From: Saprospiraceae bacterium | Lineage (GTDB): Bacteria > Bacteroidota > Bacteroidia > Chitinophagales > Saprospiraceae | Assembly: GCA_021604865.1 (NCBI GenBank) | Contig: BQJU01000012.1 | Coordinates: forward strand, 62,001-126,000 | DNA length: 64,000 bases | Direction of reading: 5' to 3' | Part shown: in pieces, positions 23,237 to 57,373 of the stretch | Numbering within the stretch: position 1 is the first letter of the stretch | How the letters are laid out: the number at the start of each line of letters is the position of its first letter | Notes under the pieces: model-generated | What the model was told of the DNA's origin: nothing | Databases searched by the model: none | Seen by the model: the letters and a program-made list of their open reading frames with translations, nothing else | Made by a program: the position numbers and the translations under genes

Positions 23237-23743
23237 TTATGCCTTCTTATACGCCTCGTATCCCATTTCGTCAAGGCGCTGGTATTTTTTTGCAACACCT
23301 TCTTCAAGTTCCTTTTTAAAGGTGACAATCCTATTCTGGAGGTTTTTGTCAGAGGCACCCAGGATTTGGGCGGCCAGAATACCTGCATTTTGGGCGGCAT
23401 TAAGGGCTACGGTAGCTACCGGTACACCATTGGGCATTTGAAGAATAGAAAGTATCGAGTCCCAACCATCAATGGAATTGGAAGATTTTACCGGTACACC
23501 AATAACGGGTAGGGGAGAAAGCGCAGCCACCATTCCAGGTAGATGAGCGGCCCCACCGGCACCGGCTATGATGACTTGGATACCACGATCGTGCGCCTCT
23601 TTTGCAAAAGCAAACATTCTATCTGGCGTACGGTGCGCCGAAACAATGGTGATTTCAAAAGCCACCTCTAGTTTTTTTAATACATCTGCTGCCTGTCGCA
23701 TCACCGGCAAGTCAGAATCAGAACCCATTATAATGCTGACCAT
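23237..23743 (-). CDS. purE: N5-carboxyaminoimidazole ribonucleotide mutase
   Basis: A 168-residue class I PurE. The signature regions [40 protein letters not shown] and the C-terminal [14 protein letters not shown] are all present. It converts N5-CAIR to CAIR in de novo purine synthesis, downstream of a PurK ATPase that is not in this window. Length is standard. It is a single gene here with a short leader next to a large repeat; purB and purU lie 17 kb away. Confidence 0.97.
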
Positions 23744-23799
23744 ATTGGAATTGGTTATTTTTTATTTTTAAATCGGTTGAGCCGTCTACCATTTCGGGC

Positions 23800-24128
23800 G
23801 TGTACGGGAAAGTGTTTTTTTTCACCGCAGAGGTGAACACGGAGTTTCGCAGAGTAATTTTTTTGGTATTCAGTATTTTATGCATTTCCCCCGAATTGAA
23901 AAGTCTAAATAGGACACATTTTACTGGACACTCCTCCCATTTCCGCCCTAAACCTCCTAAACCTTCTAAACCTTCTAAACCTCCTAAACCTTCTAAACCT
24001 TCTAAACCCAAACACCCCCTATAGTCTCTATATGCACACTCTCCTAAACCTTCCCTAAACCTCCCTAAACCCTTCTAAACCTCCCTAAACCCTTCTAAAC
24101 CCCTTCTAAACCTTCCCTAAACTCTTCT
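23800..24128. repeat. Composite dispersed repeat with 9-bp TAAACC minisatellite (copy A)
   Basis: Block 1 begins GTGTACGGGAAAGTG (23800) and runs through a T-tract into ACCGCAGAG...CACGGAGT. Block 2 is GACACATTTTACTGGACA (23913-23930). From 23947 a 9-base minisatellite (CTAAACCTT/CTAAACCTC) runs to about 24128, turning more irregular downstream. The same three parts in the same order occur at 47767-48117. No gene is visible in the 23744-24188 gap; the frames through the array only spell KPSKPPKPS or GLEGLGG repeats and are not treated as coding. Confidence 0.8.
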
Positions 24129-24188
24129 AATCCTATTCAACCCTACAGCTCCTCTTTTCCAATCTCCACCTAAATCCTAAAACCTGTC

Positions 24189-25364
24189 CTACCTATACAC
24201 CTGCACCGGAGCTAAATCTTCAGAAAAGTCCCTAACATCCATATAACCAGGAGGAATAACAATTTCCCCTTTGGTATCAATAAAGGCGATGCCACGATAG
24301 ACGGCCGTCCGGGCCAAGCCATCCTTAAAGGGCCATGCTAGCCCGAATTGAGCACGCGTGATCAATTTGCCCTGATTATCTAGATAACCCCATAAGCCAT
24401 CAAGTTGATATGGAGCAATACCTTCGGAAAAACTATACAATTGATCAAAACTTATAGGTATAACTACTTCGCCAAATGCGTTAATTAGTCCATATTTACT
24501 ACTCAATTCAACACCCCACAAGCTATCACCAGCATACCAAAGTTGATCGTATTGAGGTTCTACTACAAAATTCCCCGTTGCATCCAGCAAGCCAAACTGG
24601 GTATCTTTTTTAGCAGGTGCAATACCTAGATTAAAATCAAAGGCCGACACAAAGGTTGGTTTAATAGCCCATTTCCCAGACTTGTCAATATAACCGTAAA
24701 GGCCCTCGGATTTGACTCTGGCCAACCCATCAGAAAAAGGAAAAGCTTTTTCGTATTTTGGTTCCAAAAGAACCGTTCCTTTGTTTTTGATCAGTCCGTA
24801 TTTGCCATTTTTTTTAATCCTTGCGACCCCATTTTCGAAAGCCGAAGCCTGGTCGTACTGCGGCTCAATCACTACCTTGCCTTCCCGATCGAGGTAACCA
24901 AATAGTTGGTCTTGTCTAAAACTGGCCAGCCCCTCACTGAAGTCTCCCAATTCGGCATATTCAGCAGGGATTACCCAGGCCCCCTTGAGATTGATGTACC
25001 CCATTTTATGGTCATAGGTCTGAACGCGAGCTAGGCCTTCTGAAAAGGACCAGGCACCCTGAAATTGAAGGGGAATAACAATCATTCCCTGCTTATCGAT
25101 ATATCCCCACCGTCCTTTCTTGCGGACAACCGCCAGTCCTTCTGAGAAATTCCGAGTTTCATCAAAATTGTCGGTTATGACTAGGGCTCCACTACGGTTG
25201 ATGTATCCCCACTTGTACTGCGCTTCTTCATAATCTTCTTCGATAGGAGGAAGTTGGGCTGGGCCATTTTGAACTGTGTTTTCTTCCTGAGTCGCCGAAT
25301 CGGGTTGACAGGAAGTCAATAAGAAGCTGAATAAAAAAAACAGGTAAGTAATAATTTTAATCAT
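24189..25364 (-). CDS. WG-repeat lipoprotein
   Basis: The ATG at 25364 gives a proper lipoprotein signal (MIKIITYLFFLFSFLLTSC) and lies 13 bases after the nrtR stop; a longer frame upstream would overlap nrtR and lacks a signal. The mature part holds ten WG repeats of about 37 residues, each with an aromatic-G-Y/L-I/L-D/N core (WGYINRSG, WGYIDKQG, MGYINLKG, FGYLDREG, YGYIDKSG and so on) followed by IEPQYD/FSEGLA. WG repeats form beta-rich scaffolds whose partners are usually unknown. Its location after nrtR and pncB suggests co-transcription, but a functional link to NAD metabolism is not shown by the sequence. Confidence 0.85.
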   Translation of the reverse strand: MIKIITYLFFLFSFLLTSCQPDSATQEENTVQNGPAQLPPIEEDYEEAQYKWGYINRSGALVITDNFDETRNFSEGLAVVRKKGRWGYIDKQGMIVIPLQFQGAWSFSEGLARVQTYDHKMGYINLKGAWVIPAEYAELGDFSEGLASFRQDQLFGYLDREGKVVIEPQYDQASAFENGVARIKKNGKYGLIKNKGTVLLEPKYEKAFPFSDGLARVKSEGLYGYIDKSGKWAIKPTFVSAFDFNLGIAPAKKDTQFGLLDATGNFVVEPQYDQLWYAGDSLWGVELSSKYGLINAFGEVVIPISFDQLYSFSEGIAPYQLDGLWGYLDNQGKLITRAQFGLAWPFKDGLARTAVYRGIAFIDTKGEIVIPPGYMDVRDFSEDLAPVQVYR

Positions 25365-25377
25365 AAGCAGACCTAAA

Positions 25378-26094
25378 TTATATCTCAAAATCAACACCCC
25401 GTTTAATGAGATCATCATATTTGTCACGGGCAAGTTGTTCGTATTTTTCCTTATCAAAACTGTACAAAACGGCAGGTCGATGGGCCACACCTTCCTGTTT
25501 TCCAACTTCATTTAAAACGCCCATTTTAAGGATTCTTGTTCTGAAATTGCGCTTATTTAACTCTTTTACCCCCAAAACGGTTTCGTACAGACGCTGCAAT
25601 TGAGACAGTGTAAACTGTTCAGGCAGCAATTCAAATCCAATGGGCTGATATCGAACCTTTGCCTGAAGCCTGTTGATGGCAACCTGCATGATCTCATTGT
25701 GGTCAAAGGCCAAATCAGGAATATCATCAATCTCAAACCATTTGACTAGGTGCGCATCGGAGGCAGCTTGCACCGGATGTTCTGCCAGGTTAACCAGAGC
25801 GTAATAGGCAACACTAATCACCCGGCCACGTGGATCTCTGCCCCGTTGGCCAAAGGTATATAGTTGTTCAATAAAAACATCTTTCACACCAGTTTCTTCC
25901 TCCAATTCCCGCAATGCAGCATGTTCCAAATCTTCCTCCATATCAACAAATCCACCGGGTAATGCCCATTTGTATTGAAAGGGAGCATGTCCACGTTGAA
26001 TCAGTAAAACTTTAAGCTTACTACTTTGGTCAAATCCAAAAATGACACAATCAACAGTTAAGGCCGGCCTTGGATATTCATAAGTATATGGCAT
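25378..26094 (-). CDS. nrtR: NrtR-type NUDIX transcriptional regulator of NAD metabolism
   Basis: A 238-residue protein: an N-terminal NUDIX domain (~10-140) with an intact box [23 protein letters not shown], followed by a C-terminal winged-helix-like region (~155-235, with [21 protein letters not shown]) typical of NrtR/ADP-ribose-responsive regulators. NrtR proteins usually repress NAD salvage genes and release DNA on binding ADP-ribose. Here it lies 46 bases downstream of pncB on the same strand, the classical context. The intact NUDIX box leaves open a hydrolase activity on ADP-ribose-like compounds. An inverted repeat in the gap to pncB is a possible operator. Confidence 0.85.
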
Positions 26095-44578: not shown

Positions 44579-46056
44579 TGGGATTGAAATATTGGTTATC
44601 TATCTTAAGTACCTTCTTTTTTTTACAACCGGAATCGCATGATCACCTGCTTATTGCTCCTGGTGAGTTTGTAAGTGTTGGGGTAGATACATTGCCGGCG
44701 TATTGGCAAACTGAATACCCTTTCCTCAATCTCGATGCCAATGAGGTTGTTTTTCCGGAACAGCTGGCTTCTTTTTTTGAAAAGCTCAGACAATTGGAAA
44801 ACGGGGAAATTGAACGCCTGAATATTGTCCATATTGGCGATTCACATGTACAGGCTGATTTTTGGACTGGAAAAATGCGTCAGAAATTTCAGGCCCGTTT
44901 TGGCGCCGCTGGCCGGGGATTGATCTTTCCCTACCAATTGGCAGGAACCAACAATCCATTGGATTACCGCATCACCAGCAATACGGATTGGATCGCCAGA
45001 AATAATGCCTTTAAGCCTGGCTTCCCAATGGGGATCAGTGGCATGAGTATTCATACCACAAAGCCGGATTTTACTATGGAAGTGCTGATTAAAGATTCCC
45101 TGGGTGATGGCCGATTCAACAAGGTCACGTTTTTTAATGAGAAAACAACCAGCAGCCTGGATTTTGCCCTGAGTTTTGGTGATCCTCAACCCAAAGAAGA
45201 AAAACCAGTCACAGTGCAACGCAAAATCCATCGGGTACGCTCGGGAGATACCCTTTATGACTTGGGCCGCAAGTATGGCGTACGGGTAAAAGACCTGCAA
45301 CGATGGAATGGAATTCGTGGTAGCCGCCTGAGTATTGGACAAAAGTTAGTGGTCAAAGGAGGCACCGTGAAGCGTGCCAAACCAAAAGTCAATCACAACA
45401 AATTGGGCCTTTTATCGAACTCAGAATACCCCATCTTTGAAGGTCCCAATGCACTAGAATTTGATACCCTTCTCTACCGCCTACAAATTCAGGGAGAACG
45501 GCACAATAATGAGCAAAAGGAAGCATTGATTTATGGTATCTCTCTGGAAAATACACGGAATAATGGTATTGTTTACCACAGTATTGGTGTAAATGGAGCA
45601 ACGCATTTTCATTTTAATCAGGCCAAACATTTTGCCAAAGACCTGCCTTGGTTGGAGCCCGATCTGATCATCGTTTCTCTGGGTACAAATGAATCCGTAG
45701 GATCAGATCCCGACCTTCATAAATTTGCTGAGGATGTGGATCTTTTTTATCAAAATATAGCCGACAATTGTCCGGACGTTCCAGTTCTAGTAACCACCAA
45801 TTCCGATATTTTGCGAAAGCGAAAATACCCTAATGAAGGGACCAAACCCATCAAGGAAGCATTGGTGCAAAAAGCCGGAGAGAGTGGTTTTGGACTGTGG
45901 GACTTGCACGAATTGATGGGCGGGCAGGGAGCCATCAGGGCGTGGCAAAAAGCTGGACTAGCCCACACCGATTTTATTCATTTTACGGAAGCAGGATATA
46001 CGCTACAGGCGGATCTGTTATTTGCAGCACTAATAAAGGCCTATGAGCAGTATTGA
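44575..46056 (+). CDS. SGNH hydrolase-like protein with an inserted LysM domain
   Basis: A 493-residue exported protein (N-terminal hydrophobic segment ~4-18). Block I is IVHIGDSHVQADFW near 84-97. Between this and the later blocks lies a LysM domain at ~217-262 (HRVRSGDTLYDLGRKYGV...SRLSIGQKLVV), which normally binds peptidoglycan or chitin-like glycan. SGNH blocks resume with IVSLGTNESVG (near 380) and FIHFTEAGY (near 475). It overlaps the upstream SGNH gene by four bases and the MBOAT gene by 14, so the three are one operon. A role in placing or removing O-acetyl groups on a wall glycan is likely. Confidence 0.83.
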   Translation: MMGLKYWLSILSTFFFLQPESHDHLLIAPGEFVSVGVDTLPAYWQTEYPFLNLDANEVVFPEQLASFFEKLRQLENGEIERLNIVHIGDSHVQADFWTGKMRQKFQARFGAAGRGLIFPYQLAGTNNPLDYRITSNTDWIARNNAFKPGFPMGISGMSIHTTKPDFTMEVLIKDSLGDGRFNKVTFFNEKTTSSLDFALSFGDPQPKEEKPVTVQRKIHRVRSGDTLYDLGRKYGVRVKDLQRWNGIRGSRLSIGQKLVVKGGTVKRAKPKVNHNKLGLLSNSEYPIFEGPNALEFDTLLYRLQIQGERHNNEQKEALIYGISLENTRNNGIVYHSIGVNGATHFHFNQAKHFAKDLPWLEPDLIIVSLGTNESVGSDPDLHKFAEDVDLFYQNIADNCPDVPVLVTTNSDILRKRKYPNEGTKPIKEALVQKAGESGFGLWDLHELMGGQGAIRAWQKAGLAHTDFIHFTEAGYTLQADLLFAALIKAYEQY

Positions 46057-47755
46057 TTGGTCGACAATCACAGAATTGCTGGCCTACCATCCTAGCCGAC
46101 CATTGTTGTTCAATAGCGTGCGTTTTTTGGCCCTGTTTCTGGCATTTTTTAGCTTGTACATTGCCTTACGCCGCCGCCTCAATTGGCGACTAGTCTATAC
46201 GCTGGCTTTTTCCCTGTATTTTTATTATCTATCCAGTGGCTTTTATTTTTTTATCCTGCTGTTGTCTACGGTAGTAGACTTTACGCTTGGACATTTTATT
46301 TACCGCGCATCCAATAAAACTCGAAAACGGCTTTTTCTGGGTTTAAGTTTGGGCCTGAATCTCGGTTTATTAGGGTATTTTAAGTATACCAATTTCCTGA
46401 TCGACCTATTTAATGGAAGCCTGGGCACCCATTTTCATTTTCAAGATATCTTTTTGCCCGTTGGCATTTCCTTTTTTACCTTTCAAACCCTGAGTTATAG
46501 TATTGATATTTATCGGGAAAAGCTGATTCCGTTAACGGAGGGTGTACACGGTTTACCATCACTATTCCGCAATTTTTTAGATTTCGCCTTCTTCGTTTGT
46601 TTTTTTCCTCAGCTGGTAGCAGGCCCGATTGTCAGGGCGGCAGACTTTATTCCGCAGATCCGCAAACGGTTGGCACTTACCGAAGTACAATTGGGGCAGG
46701 GGATTTTGTTGATAGCTGGTGGTTTGTTCAAGAAGGCTGTGATTTCTGATTATATCAGCGTCAATTTTGTAGATCGGGTCTTTGAAAATCCAGTCCTTTA
46801 TTCCGGCCTTGAAAATCTACTGGCTGTATACGGCTATGCACTACAGATTTACTGTGATTTTTCCGGCTATTCGGACATGGCAATTGGACTGGCTTTGTTA
46901 CTGGGGTTTCAACTTCCTGAAAATTTCCGCACCCCTTATCAATCCAAAAGCATTCAGGAGTTTTGGCGCCGATGGCATATATCCCTGTCCACCTGGTTGC
47001 GGGATTATCTATACATCTCCCTAGGAGGTAACCGGAAAGGTGGTTTTCGAACTTATGTCAATTTGATGATCACGATGTTACTTGGAGGATTGTGGCATGG
47101 TGCCAGCTGGGTCTTCATCCTGTGGGGTTTTCTTCATGGAATAGGGTTGGCACTAGATCGATTTTTGAAAAACAGGGGCAAATTTTTTGAGCTTGACGCA
47201 ACCCGGGCCTTGGTGGTTTTGTTGTTGTTACATCTGGTTGGACAGGGCCTGATTTTATGGCAATATGCCGATGATCCGGAACTATTGAATGCCTATACCC
47301 GTGGCAATGTGCAGATGGGCTTGTTTTGGATCACTTTATTTGTAATTGCTCAAATAATTACCCAACTTAAATGGAGTAAAAGGGTTATCAATGATAGTGT
47401 GAGCAAAATTCTGGTTTTTCATTTTGTTTGCTTTTGCTGGATTTTTTTCAGGGCCGGCGCACTAGCTAATCCTATGCCACCGATGCAAACCGCTGGAGAA
47501 GTATTGGGCCAGCTGATGACCAATTTTCAGTTGGAACTGCTGCCACAGGTACTCGAGGCCTACAAGCCTGTCCTTTTCCTAATGTTGTTGGGGTATCTGC
47601 TGCATTTTCTTCCCCGTAATTGGGCAAATGCTTTTGAAAAGTCCTTTATCCGGTGGCCCCTTATTGGTAAAGCTACGTTTTTAGCAGCAGTCATCTGGAT
47701 TGTCATCCAAACGGCCAGTTCAGAAGTGGTACCCTTTATTTATTTTCAATTTTAA
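46043..47755 (+). CDS. MBOAT family O-acyltransferase (AlgI/DltB/PatA type)
   Basis: A 570-residue polytopic membrane protein with roughly 11 or more helices. The MBOAT core is visible: PVGISFFTFQTLSYSIDIYR, FFPQLVAGPIVRA, YCDFSGYSDMAIG, SIQEFWRRWHISLSTWLRDYLY split over the cytoplasmic helix region, and the invariant His in GGLWHGASW. Such proteins pass acyl groups across the membrane to SGNH partners that load them on alginate, teichoic acid, cellulose or peptidoglycan. Its start overlaps the LysM-SGNH gene. The downstream gap contains the composite repeat. Confidence 0.93.
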   Translation: MSSIDWSTITELLAYHPSRPLLFNSVRFLALFLAFFSLYIALRRRLNWRLVYTLAFSLYFYYLSSGFYFFILLLSTVVDFTLGHFIYRASNKTRKRLFLGLSLGLNLGLLGYFKYTNFLIDLFNGSLGTHFHFQDIFLPVGISFFTFQTLSYSIDIYREKLIPLTEGVHGLPSLFRNFLDFAFFVCFFPQLVAGPIVRAADFIPQIRKRLALTEVQLGQGILLIAGGLFKKAVISDYISVNFVDRVFENPVLYSGLENLLAVYGYALQIYCDFSGYSDMAIGLALLLGFQLPENFRTPYQSKSIQEFWRRWHISLSTWLRDYLYISLGGNRKGGFRTYVNLMITMLLGGLWHGASWVFILWGFLHGIGLALDRFLKNRGKFFELDATRALVVLLLLHLVGQGLILWQYADDPELLNAYTRGNVQMGLFWITLFVIAQIITQLKWSKRVINDSVSKILVFHFVCFCWIFFRAGALANPMPPMQTAGEVLGQLMTNFQLELLPQVLEAYKPVLFLMLLGYLLHFLPRNWANAFEKSFIRWPLIGKATFLAAVIWIVIQTASSEVVPFIYFQF

Positions 47756-47766
47756 AAATGAAGGGA

Positions 47767-48117
47767 GTGTACGAGAAAGTGTGTTTTTTTTACCGCAGAG
47801 ATGCGGCGAACGCGGAGTCTGTTGCGCTAATAGATTGGTGCTCAGTGATTTATGTGTTTTATCAGGAGTGGAGGATTCTGAGCAAGACACATTTTGCTGG
47901 ACATTCCCAAAATGAAAACAAATGCCCACCTAAACCCCCTAAACAATGCTAAACCCTCTAAACCCCCTAAACCCCCTAAACCCCCTAAACCCTCTAAACC
48001 TACTAAACCATGCTAAACCATACTAAACCCCCTAAACCATACTAAACCCCCTAAACCATGCTAAACCATACTAAACTATACCAAACCCCCTCCAAACCAT
48101 TCTAAAAAACCTTCTAA
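47767..48117. repeat. Composite dispersed repeat with 9-bp TAAACC minisatellite (copy B)
   Basis: Block 1 begins GTGTACGAGAAAGTGTG (47767), followed by a T-tract and ACCGCAGAG...ACGCGGAGT. Block 2 is GACACATTTTGCTGGACA (47886-47903). A minisatellite based on CTAAACCCC and CTAAACCAT units runs from about 47929 to 48117. Order, spacing and orientation match copy A at 23800-24128. No gene is supported in this 373-base gap. Confidence 0.8.
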
Positions 48118-48128
48118 ACTATAATTAA

Positions 48129-48764
48129 ATGAAACGTCAAATATCCCAATGGAAATTTTTTTTACTACGGTTGCGTCGCTTTTTTGTCACCACAGTTTTA
48201 GGGGGCATTGTTGTGATTTTACCGCTTTCTATTTTTATCCTCCTGGTGCGGTTTGTTTTTGATATTGCGATCAATTTACTTGCTCCGATAAGAAGCCTGC
48301 TGGGTTTTTCCAACAATGTAAACGAATGGCTGATCAACCTGATCGCCTTTAGTTTGGTCACCCTTTTATTTTTCCTGATTGGTTTAGCGGTGCGTACAGG
48401 TTTTGGTAGAGAGATTTTTGCTTTTATTGAAGAAAACTGGTTGATTCAATTGCCTTTTTACGGTACGGTGCGGGATACGGTTCAAGCATTTTTTGGCAAT
48501 AAAAAACCTCCATTCAGTAAGGTGGTGTTGGTAGATGTATTTGGAAGTCCTACCCGCATGACTGGGTTTGTCACCGATGAACACGAAGGCGGAATGATTA
48601 CGGTATTTGTCCCTACAGGCCCGAATCCTACGAATGGCTTTATCTTCCATGTCAAGCCAGACCAAATCGAATATCTGGATGTAAAGACCGAGGAGGCTAT
48701 GCGCACCATCATTGGCGTGGGTGTGGGGTCTGCAAACCTCTTTAACCGGATCAAGTTGAGGTGA
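48129..48764 (+). CDS. DUF502 family membrane protein
   Basis: A 211-residue protein with two N-terminal membrane helices (~20-45 and ~65-90) followed by a soluble domain. LQLPFYGTVRD-like (IQLPFYGTVRDTVQAFF), KVVLVDVFGSPTRMTGFVT and VFVPTGPNPTNGFIF are typical of DUF502 proteins, which resemble plant COV1 membrane proteins. Biochemical function unknown. It stands 12 bases after the minisatellite and upstream of the DUF1573 gene, which has its own promoter. Confidence 0.88.
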   Translation: MKRQISQWKFFLLRLRRFFVTTVLGGIVVILPLSIFILLVRFVFDIAINLLAPIRSLLGFSNNVNEWLINLIAFSLVTLLFFLIGLAVRTGFGREIFAFIEENWLIQLPFYGTVRDTVQAFFGNKKPPFSKVVLVDVFGSPTRMTGFVTDEHEGGMITVFVPTGPNPTNGFIFHVKPDQIEYLDVKTEEAMRTIIGVGVGSANLFNRIKLR

Positions 48765-54829: not shown

Positions 54830-57373
54830 TCACTCTCTCTCCCTCTTTAAAATCTCCAACTCCGCCCTAAATTCCTCCATAGTCGCTTTTAAAACATCCA
54901 ATTCGTTGGTTCTTTCCTCCAGTTCTTTTTGTTTTTTGTGTAATTCCTGGATAGCTACCAGAGCCACTCCTGCCGGGTCGAGCGTGGAAATAGTGGTTTC
55001 ATTTGCGCCAAGCCCAAATAGGTGATAGAAATCTTGAGCCATGGGCCCGACGTGTTTTGTGTTCTTATTTTCTTTGATGTAATTCCATTGGGTAACCGGC
55101 AACTGGCTGACTTTTTCTAATATTTCGGCACTATTCAAGGGAGTAATATTTTCTTTGACATTGCGATCGGAAGCGTTAGTCCAGTGCCCGCCTGAAGATA
55201 AATTAGCGGTAGTGACCGAAAAAGAAACTATTTCATCAGCTTCAGCATTTTTGCCAAATCCAACTTTATCAATATTGGTCCCAATTACGGCTGTATTGGA
55301 AGTAGTCACCTGGACATCAAAACCTAATCCGATGGTGTTATAATTTAGAAGTAAGGTTCCTGCATTATATCCAATCAATGTATTTCGATAACCCGAACTG
55401 ATGGATGCACCGGCATTGCTTCCAACAAGCGTATTAAAAACACCTGAATTTAAACCTGAACCCGCATTATTTCCAATAATGGTATTATTCGTACCCGAAA
55501 AACTACCTCCGGAAGCGGCAAAATGGCCTACCACCGTGTTGCTGCCATTGCCGCTGTAATGCTCGCCGGCATGGGCACCGATAAAGGTATTGTTATCACC
55601 ATCTCCCGCTGATCCTCCGGCCATTAAACCAATCATGGTATTTTCAGTGCCATTTTCAAAAGTCCTTCCTGCCCCCCGGCCAATGAAAATATTATCACTG
55701 TCCAGGTTGTCGAGCCCTGCCTGATAACCGATGCAAACATTGTTACTACCCGTTACATTATTTCTGCCTGCCCCTGTTCCGGAATAATAATTATTACTGC
55801 CTGAAGTGTTAGCATAACCTGCCTTGTAACCGGCAAAATGATTGAAATTGCCGGTATTTGATAACCCGGCCTCAAAACCAGAAAAATAATTAAAACTGCC
55901 TGCAGTATTTGCCCGGCCTGCTTTGTAACCAACAAAATGATTCTCATTGCCGGTGATGTTGGCTTTGCCTGCCTCGAAGCCAGCAAAATAATTGTCACTA
56001 CCTGTGGTATTGGAATAGCCTGCCTCAAAGCCTATAAATTGATTCGAAGAACCGGTGGTATTGGAATAGCCTGTTTTGTAACCTGAAAAATAAAGAGAGC
56101 TGCCCGTGCTAAAATAACCTGCCTGGTGGCCGGAAAAATAATTGTTGCTACCTGTTGTATTTGTATGCCCTGCATCATAGCCGGAAAAATGATTGCCGCT
56201 GCCCGTAGTATTGGAAGTTCCTGTCAGATAACCCAAAAAATAATTATTACTACCCGTTGTATTAGCCCCGCCTGCCAGGTAACCCAGAAAATAATTCCGA
56301 ATTCCTATAGTATTGGAGGCCCCTGCTGAAGTCCCAATCATAAGATTATTGTTGCCGGTGGTGTTGGCTTGTCCGGCATTATAACCAATAAAGAGATTGT
56401 AATAACCTGTGGTATTGCTTGTCCCGGCCTGATAACCAATAAAGGTATTTCTGCCAAAGCTTGAATTATTGGCATACCCGGCAGCTTTTCCGATGAATAA
56501 ATTAAAAGAGCTGGTTGTACCGTTTCTACCGGCATCGGGGCCAATAAAGAGATTGGTATTACCCGAAGTGTTGGAATATCCGGCCTGATAACCGTCAAAA
56601 TGATTGCCGGAAGCAGTGGTATTATTATACCCGGCAAAATAGCCGGTAAAGGTATTGCCGGCACCGCTGGTATTGTTATACCCTGCATTATTACCAGTAA
56701 AGGTATTCCCACTTGTTGTCGTTTTAAACCCTGCACCCCGTCCTAAATAGGTATTGCCGGATCCTGTGACGTTAAATCCACCTGCATTGTTACCCAAAAA
56801 GGTGTTGTGGATACCTAGTGTAGTGGAATAACCGGCATATACGCCAACAAAAGTGTTCTCATTTTCTACGCCGTCTCCGATACCGTCATCGTTGTGCCCT
56901 GCATCACTACCTAAAAAAAGACTTCCCCCCGGAGCATAAGCGTGCAGCGTTTTCCCATCATGACGCATCACTTCTATGCCTTTGACATCAAAACGGATAA
57001 TATCTTCATCCGGACTTTTTTCTATCTGGATTTTGGTATCCTGATCAGCATCCTCCAATTTCATTTTTTTGAAGTCTTCCCAGTTGCCGCTTGTGAAATA
57101 CCAAAAAGACTGGCTATCAGTATCATAAACCAACATGCCATCTGCAGGACTACCACCGTTAATGAGTACCCTTTCCGCACTTGTCATACGGGGAATGAGC
57201 AAACCCTTGCTGGTTGATTTTAAATCGAGGATGGCTCCTGCATTTGGGATAGAGCCGTCATCATTGATGCCAACAGTACCCTGTGCGGAAGCATCTGGGA
57301 TACTGGCAAACATCAATGAAACAAGAAACATTAAGGGGAGTAATTTTCTCAAGGAAGTAAATAGTATGTTCAT
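54830..57373 (-). CDS. Repeat-headed surface fibre protein with S74 intramolecular chaperone domain
   Basis: An 847-residue protein with signal peptide (to about DASAQ). The N-terminal part (~30-135) is the TVGI-DDGS-PNAGAILDL module common in Bacteroidota. Residues ~150-700 consist of more than 20 degenerate repeats of about 22 residues of the form GY-AG-xNTTG-xNxFxG, resembling YadA-like trimeric heads. The C-terminus is a peptidase S74 domain with the self-cleavage dyad SDRNVK (Ser735, Lys740), followed by a coiled coil (~800-847). S74 domains trimerise fibres and then cut themselves off. No phage genes are nearby, so this is a cellular adhesin or fibre rather than a tail spike. Confidence 0.88.
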   Translation of the reverse strand: MNILFTSLRKLLPLMFLVSLMFASIPDASAQGTVGINDDGSIPNAGAILDLKSTSKGLLIPRMTSAERVLINGGSPADGMLVYDTDSQSFWYFTSGNWEDFKKMKLEDADQDTKIQIEKSPDEDIIRFDVKGIEVMRHDGKTLHAYAPGGSLFLGSDAGHNDDGIGDGVENENTFVGVYAGYSTTLGIHNTFLGNNAGGFNVTGSGNTYLGRGAGFKTTTSGNTFTGNNAGYNNTSGAGNTFTGYFAGYNNTTASGNHFDGYQAGYSNTSGNTNLFIGPDAGRNGTTSSFNLFIGKAAGYANNSSFGRNTFIGYQAGTSNTTGYYNLFIGYNAGQANTTGNNNLMIGTSAGASNTIGIRNYFLGYLAGGANTTGSNNYFLGYLTGTSNTTGSGNHFSGYDAGHTNTTGSNNYFSGHQAGYFSTGSSLYFSGYKTGYSNTTGSSNQFIGFEAGYSNTTGSDNYFAGFEAGKANITGNENHFVGYKAGRANTAGSFNYFSGFEAGLSNTGNFNHFAGYKAGYANTSGSNNYYSGTGAGRNNVTGSNNVCIGYQAGLDNLDSDNIFIGRGAGRTFENGTENTMIGLMAGGSAGDGDNNTFIGAHAGEHYSGNGSNTVVGHFAASGGSFSGTNNTIIGNNAGSGLNSGVFNTLVGSNAGASISSGYRNTLIGYNAGTLLLNYNTIGLGFDVQVTTSNTAVIGTNIDKVGFGKNAEADEIVSFSVTTANLSSGGHWTNASDRNVKENITPLNSAEILEKVSQLPVTQWNYIKENKNTKHVGPMAQDFYHLFGLGANETTISTLDPAGVALVAIQELHKKQKELEERTNELDVLKATMEEFRAELEILKRERE

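Follow-up and report, generated by a model that had tools for sequence, protein, structure and literature searches.

Two composite repeats in a 64,000-nucleotide (nt) stretch of a Saprospiraceae bacterium genome (hereafter, the window) are each a meeting of two repeat families: a MITE with IS256-type ends and a resident minisatellite built on the heptamer CTAAACC. We consider it probable, at about two chances in three, that the MITE inserts preferentially, and mostly one way, in the resident arrays. In our model, an IS256-type transposase, not found in the genome now, would have moved the non-autonomous MITE in trans, with each insertion duplicating 8 bp of target. The intergenic target would be a minisatellite comprising a module designated G, a CTAAACC run and often a second module, T. 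The MITE would have entered a G module, mostly the first, or landed just before it, repeatedly and independently, and nearly always on the array's strand, so that the array now appears as the MITE's tail. A preliminary description of the two loci had proposed a mobile or amplified unit of two conserved blocks with an evolving tail. Both blocks are real, amplified, formerly mobile and non-coding, but they belong to a single 139–146-bp element, block 1 as its left end and block 2 as its right, and the array is not its tail.

Copy A of the MITE (139 bp) occupies positions 23796–23934 on the forward strand (profile match C12:85796-85934, model positions 1–145, E 1.6e-30; hereafter, contigs, loci and genomes of our survey are designated ‘C’, ‘L’ and ‘G’ with a number), with left end GGGCGTGTACGGGAAAGTGT and right end ...ACACATTTTACTGGACACTCC. 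Its left flank TACCATTT (23787–23794) and right flank TCCCATTT (23935–23942) are identical at 7/8 positions, probably as a decayed target-site duplication. The CTAAACC array follows at 23948–24112 (+), with 14 exact heptamers, spacers of mostly 2–4 bases and one longer interruption. What had been taken for a tail continues into another conserved module: T-like sequence spans approximately 24130–24200, and the core of this distal T module, CCTACAGCTCCTCTTTTCC, is matched with zero mismatches at 24142–24160 (+; C12:86142-86160). Copy B (146 bp; 47763–47908, +; profile match C12:109763-109907) runs from GGGAGTGTACGAGAAAGTGTG to ACACATTTTGCTGGACATTCCC between two identical copies (8/8) of the target-site duplication AAAATGAA. 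The left one (47755–47762) overlaps the final base of the upstream stop codon, and the right one (47909–47916) sits between the MITE and the array, which argues directly against the array as the tail of the unit. The array itself (47930–48067, +) also has 14 exact heptamers, and its degenerate units reach approximately 48125, directly before the next start codon.

A 20-mer end pattern with up to three mismatches finds four sites in the window, against 0.12 expected in shuffles: 23797–23816 (+) and 23915–23934 (−) in copy A, and 47764–47783 (+) and 47888–47907 (−) in copy B. Tandem Repeats Finder calls the arrays at approximately 23947–24122 and 47929–48106. Both searches bear out the location, order, orientation and spacing first given for the two copies, and no open reading frame (ORF) of at least 100 amino acids crosses either one, in agreement with the original remark that no coding capacity is evident. 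The neighbours of copy A are genes for AIR carboxylase (PurE; 23237–23743, −; PF00731, E 7.8e-65), whose best hits are from an uncultured Saprospiraceae bacterium (77% amino-acid identity) and Lewinella cohaerens (77%), and for a WG-repeat protein (24189–25511, −; PF14903, E 1.4e-103). Those of copy B encode an MBOAT acyltransferase (46043–47755, +; PF03062, E 7.7e-32) and a DUF502 protein (48129–48764, +; PF04367, E 2.2e-16). Elsewhere in the window, an ORF at 54830–57373 (−), with a predicted protein of 847 amino acids, contains, at 55967–56707, tandem repeats with a 51-bp unit (17 codons) that fall into three groups.

Beyond the window, the two blocks are the ends of one MITE of approximately 145 bp with imperfect terminal inverted repeats (TIRs) of 20–22 bp (left end GGGAGTGTACGAGAAAGTGTG; right end, read inward, GGGAGTGTCCAGCAAAGTGTG). 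A profile search recovered 71 copies, full or partial and in a few cases short and weak, from a sample of 1.45 Mb in 52 pieces of the 7.97-Mb genome, many of which were picked for holding copies. With copy A as the query, the genome gives at least 40 matches (40 of 84 first candidates scored). The end pattern with up to two mismatches occurs 101 times, against 2 for a backwards-read control. At one mismatch, a stringency that may miss diverged relatives, it has 70 matches in this genome and one each in 4 of the 297 other genomes of the family, all of which are from other genera, and the reversed control gives one match in one of the 298. The left end has no exact match in viral contigs, and among the papers listed by our literature searches no title or abstract opening mentions the MITE family or CTAAACC arrays in Saprospiraceae. 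Complete-ended copies span 131–155 bp, and the family is old and diverged (mean identity 77.3% among the 56 copies long enough for a tree).

Target-site duplications, suggested at the outset as something to look for at the edges of the unit, are found at the ends of the MITE. Among the 35 copies with both ends complete, taken from 49 unique matches in the first loci, 15 have 8-bp flanks that agree at 7/8 or better (0.32 expected) and 6 have perfect 8/8 duplications (0.03 expected), where the expectation pairs left and right flanks across different copies and one- or two-base offsets are allowed in both. The other 20 fall below 7/8, and include the array-linked copies C28, C37, C71:34864, C77:34743, C43:35621 and C12:15313. 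The MITE site at C43:35621 has a paralogous empty site at C43:4622, on the same contig and beside another MITE, where no duplication is visible by eye. At two separate loci, L022 (C71:31521-31789) and L067 (C11:45876-46105), MITE copies stand in a head-to-tail pair in which the first breaks off at model position 124 and the second begins there; the tandem on C11 looks like a nested insertion.

These duplications also weigh against reading the family as a conserved structured RNA or terminator repeat instead of a transposon, an idea to which we give hardly any credence. Three copies, each folded on both strands, do reach z scores of −3.2 to −5.6 in five of six cases (−1.9 in the sixth), but the consensus fold of 31 copies retains the TIR stem only, with changes on both sides in 1 of its 16 pairs, and the window has no Rfam match at the gathering threshold. 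CGCAGAG-type repeats occur near PF13366 (GxxExxY) genes. As a candidate partner for the MITE, PF13366 was rejected: of its six matches in this genome, none lies at a locus with the MITE core pattern.

The right end of the MITE resembles the ends of IS256 elements in relatives, and our assignment of IS256-type ends is based on this likeness. It aligns at 18 or more of 25 bases in 8 of 30 IS256 loci of the family, compared with 0 of 80 control loci, the best of which reaches 17. In six of the eight (L302, L306, L307, L308, L309 and L311), the match starts at positions 1380–1394 of the locus, which puts it some 110–120 bases beyond the match to the transposase. L309 aligns best (20/25) and has ends GGAGTGTCCATTGAACTGTGTC and GGAGTATCCATTGAACTGTGTC and its own 8-bp duplication, ACTTCTTA, in a genome with seven equal-score PF00872 matches. 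The control comparison covered the right end; the left end gives a weaker result, with a best match of 18/25. A PF00872 search found no IS256-type transposase in the genome that carries the MITE; across the family, the profile matches in 37 of 150 genomes. IS256-family elements make 8-bp target-site duplications and have the subterminal motif TGTAAA (PMC7780238, in excerpt). The ends of the MITE lack this motif and carry TGTGTT and TGTGTC instead. The IS256 loci of the family themselves have TGTGTAA or TGTGTC, several of them TGTGTC like the MITE, so the motif varies in this clade, and we therefore speak of IS256-type ends, membership of IS256 being not proven. Compared with IS256 elements, the MITE has a similar right end, GGAGTGTCC...TGTGTC, and the same length of target duplication (PMC7780238, in excerpt), but it has no transposase gene, measures only about 145 bp and has no autonomous partner found in the genome. 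Its 8-bp duplications and IS256-like end point away from REPIN, which are RAYT-dependent. We infer that an IS256-type enzyme transposed the MITE in the past.

The CTAAACC arrays are a separate family with its own architecture, in which a proximal module G (...GGAAAGAGCTACTCCGTTCTAAACCACC-TTTCCGCC) is followed by CTAAACC heptamers that short spacers keep apart; a T module is often present at the distal side. A three-heptamer array pattern matches 257 times in the genome and never in the backwards-read control. Counting as an array complex any module-G match or any cluster of at least three heptamers, we find that the sample contains 38 complexes; 24 have a MITE within 600 bp and 14 do not, although some of these 14 lie near the end of the sampled sequence and a MITE could lie beyond. 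Conversely, 26 of the 71 MITE copies have a complex within 600 bp and 45 do not; one of the latter, C47:23195, weakly matches module G in the flank to its right and has a T-module match nearby. The T-module core has 74 matches with up to three mismatches (28 in the reversed control). The 50 with up to two fall at about 35 places, and at 12 of these a MITE lies no more than approximately 650 bp away (counted by eye). On C25, eight G modules stand with no MITE. Four runs of at least three G, the G-quadruplex motif, occur in 4 of the 38 complexes, and runs of two G in 35.

The arrays also reach much further across the family than the MITE. Array patterns, with differing spacers, are present in 39 of 298 genomes and 27 of 112 genera, against 16 of 298 genomes for the reversed control, which gives at most 9 matches per genome compared with up to 257; among the loci listed, a few resemble coding repeats. 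The MITE end pattern is found in 5 of 298 (this genome counted in both surveys), and other genera have the array pattern without it. In genus g93, loci L276 and L277 (genomes G092 and G179) hold CTAAACCC arrays whose units, 13 bases long, pair with GGGTTTAG units to the left and so form intergenic inverted repeats.

This independence of the two families removes the array from the unit as first described, and it makes very unlikely a composite mobile element in which MITE and array move together. Fixed order and orientation would suit such an element, as would two related MITEs, on C37 and C125 (0.895 identical), that share the same junction at position 17 of module G. However, the target-site duplications lie directly at the MITE ends, the 45 copies mentioned above have no array complex, and in the tree the array-linked copies form no overall cluster. 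Of the 56 copies in the tree, 21 are array-linked (labels used 500 bp and a stricter array list), and mean identity is 0.772 among linked copies and 0.774 to the others. Most of the meetings therefore look independent.

The meetings are also non-random. Contigs C2, C4, C8, C12 and C15 have 257 intergenic spaces of at least 100 bp, of which 14 hold a MITE and 9 an array; both are present in 5 spaces, against 0.49 expected (p 2.5e-5), and in the 110 spaces of at least 300 bp both are again present in 5, against 0.74 expected (p 1.1e-4). With the blocks and the array meeting at 24 complexes within 600 bp of a MITE, their co-occurrence extends beyond the two loci of the window, and the parts are not scattered independently of one another.

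Their arrangement is polar. In 22 of the 24 MITE-linked complexes, CTAAACC reads outward from the MITE. Outward-reading arrays number 17 on the right and 3 on the left, another 2 enclose the MITE, and the remaining 2, on the left, read inward. On the stricter array definition, 19 of 19 are outward. Linked arrays are on the strand of the MITE in 21 of 24 cases (p 2.8e-4), outward arrays favour the right over the left by 17 to 3 (p 0.0026), and same-strand G modules number 40 downstream of MITEs and 4 upstream. Copy B, C77:34743 and C110 keep the polarity though they have no G-module match. Replication direction was considered as a cause and dropped: orientation is unrelated to local GC skew (15 of 34 arrays and 33 of 64 MITEs), so the direction of the fork offers no explanation. 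The polarity itself is demonstrated.

The polarity could come from the surrounding genes if MITEs and arrays merely crowd by chance into long intergenic spaces. The right end of the MITE faces the 3′ end of a gene in 47 of 63 copies, and in 16 of 20 cases the next gene on the array's right runs on the opposite strand (approximate counts from genes called by a simple codon-score script, with 63 of the 71 copies placed). Background intergenic spaces also show a weak outward C skew, of about −0.07 and +0.03. Still, this explanation has very little to recommend it, because the association persists in spaces of at least 300 bp and the polarity of 22 in 24 holds under other gene arrangements, copy B being an example. 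Moreover, the flanks of array-less MITEs (46 copies) have C skews of −0.25 on the left and +0.21 on the right, or −0.18 to −0.22 and +0.21 to +0.23 in intergenic space, several times the background and similar at gene 5′ and 3′ ends. Flanks of array-less MITEs such as C18:90123, C57:38868 and C75:14066 have, by eye, a further family of low-complexity words, CTCACC or CATCACC on the right and GGTGATG on the left, also C-rich outward.

The case for insertion into resident arrays is made at individual junctions. At C65:22815, the target-site duplication CACCGTTT lies inside a module G; the locus reads GTGTAAACCACCGTTT, MITE, CACCGTTTCCGCC, and the unbroken sequence TTGTAAACCACCGTTTCCGCC is present in a paralogous array at C74. 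At C116, a 7/8 duplication also falls within module G. Five of the 26 array-linked MITEs, one with only a weak match (E 0.033), and none of the 45 others have a same-strand module G on the left flank. On the right, the MITE meets module G at its position 17 (C28, C37 and C125), 20 (C18) or 14 (C71). Choice of a dispersed repeat as target has precedents, as five of seven copies of ISRm5, of the IS256 family, are at REP repeats, where IS elements of several families are likewise found (PMC1525189, in excerpt). For the polarity, we infer that strand-specific targeting would be responsible.

Three sets of observations run against the insertion reading. Random entry into multi-unit arrays predicts modules on both sides of the MITE, and simple targeting does not explain the 40:4 asymmetry of G modules. 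Several array-linked copies have no target-site duplication, and no match to module G is seen at copy B, C77:34743 or C110. At C4:81373, C112 and C110, the array stands in place of the right part of the MITE. These unexplained points make a real rival of the reverse order of events, in which the MITE came first and the array, a secondary product, grew later at its right end by slippage or repair synthesis. We regard this as possible but a good deal short of probable. It would account for arrays that lie mostly to the right and outward, for the scarcity of upstream G modules, for the three truncated MITEs joined directly to an array and for copy B, where unrelated sequence lies between the target-site duplication and an array with no G module. 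It does not sit well with the 14 of 38 complexes, some of them close to where the sampled sequence stops, that lack a MITE inside 600 bp, with T modules at about 35 places of which 12, by eye, have a MITE nearby, with the eight G modules of C25, with array patterns in genera that have no MITE end pattern or with target-site duplications inside array modules at C65 and C116.

Mirrored arrays are found elsewhere in the family. In four of the five genomes of genus g19 (Haliscomenobacter), we observe 46–127 palindrome matches per strand per genome (0–1 in the control). The core GCTACCGC-N-GCGGTAGC stands between mirrored arrays of GGTTGAG/GGTTTAG and CTCAACC/CTAAACC, and other arrays there are built of GATGAAA or the longer word GAGTACATGAG. 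At the 53 loci examined (L268-L270 and L320-L375, mostly in genomes G124, G198 and G280), the flanks are C-rich outward, with C skews of −0.71 and +0.70. Mirror identity over the first 30 bases (40 stretches) is 0.71, against 0.43 with arms swapped between loci. Local alignment of the flanks averages 25.5, against 17.2 for swapped pairs, and one of 53 loci exceeds the 99th percentile of swapped pairs, few doing so because the loci share words. The palindromes are predicted to fold into strong hairpins. Mirroring was also sought at the flanks of the MITE in its own genome and is absent there (8.63 versus 8.93 swapped, none above the 99th percentile; 70 of 71 copies scored), and for this reason we do not treat the palindromes and the MITE as one phenomenon. 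Because outward polarity is common to MITE flanks and Haliscomenobacter palindromes, it is conceivable, though we think it doubtful, that outward growth of CTnAACC-type arrays, starting at intergenic inverted-repeat cores, takes place throughout the family, with cores that differ by genus. On this tentative scheme, the core would be the IS256-type MITE here and the GCTACCGC palindrome in Haliscomenobacter, whose arms are mirrored on both sides. If true, the MITE would act as a seed from which unique flanking sequence becomes a directional minisatellite.

Several known systems resemble parts of this arrangement. MITECca01 of Cardinium, also in Bacteroidota, is similarly lineage-specific, non-coding, IS-derived and mostly intergenic, but its parent, an IS982-family element, is still present, and the excerpt of PMC9769881 does not mention a tandem array. 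BrickBuilt of Porphyromonas gingivalis, again in Bacteroidota, is an intergenic MITE tied to a minisatellite; unlike here, its 23-nt repeat is internal, with the leader on one side and the tail on the other, and its ends are IS5-like (PMC4596501, in excerpt). The array in our case is outside the right end of the MITE and, in copy B, outside the target-site duplication as well. ISPsy8 and ISRm5 insert repeatedly in a dispersed intergenic repeat, REP, ISPsy8 doing so at a fixed point (PMC1525189, in excerpt), whereas the target here is a tandem-array module and not a palindrome, the inserting element is a MITE, and there is more than one insertion point. The GGGNATC heptamers of Xanthomonas and Nostoc likewise form intergenic arrays that are G-rich on one strand (PMC4692102, in excerpt), but the CTAAACC arrays rarely have the G3 quadruplex motif and are framed by modules G and T.

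A puzzling composite repeat is resolved here into two families, one of MITEs, which are elements of an ordinary class, and one of independent minisatellite arrays, and the polarity between the two is real. The MITE–array meetings amount to about two dozen natural replicates that set strand-specific choice of arrays by transposons against the birth of arrays from transposons. Their polarity bears on how bacterial minisatellites are born.
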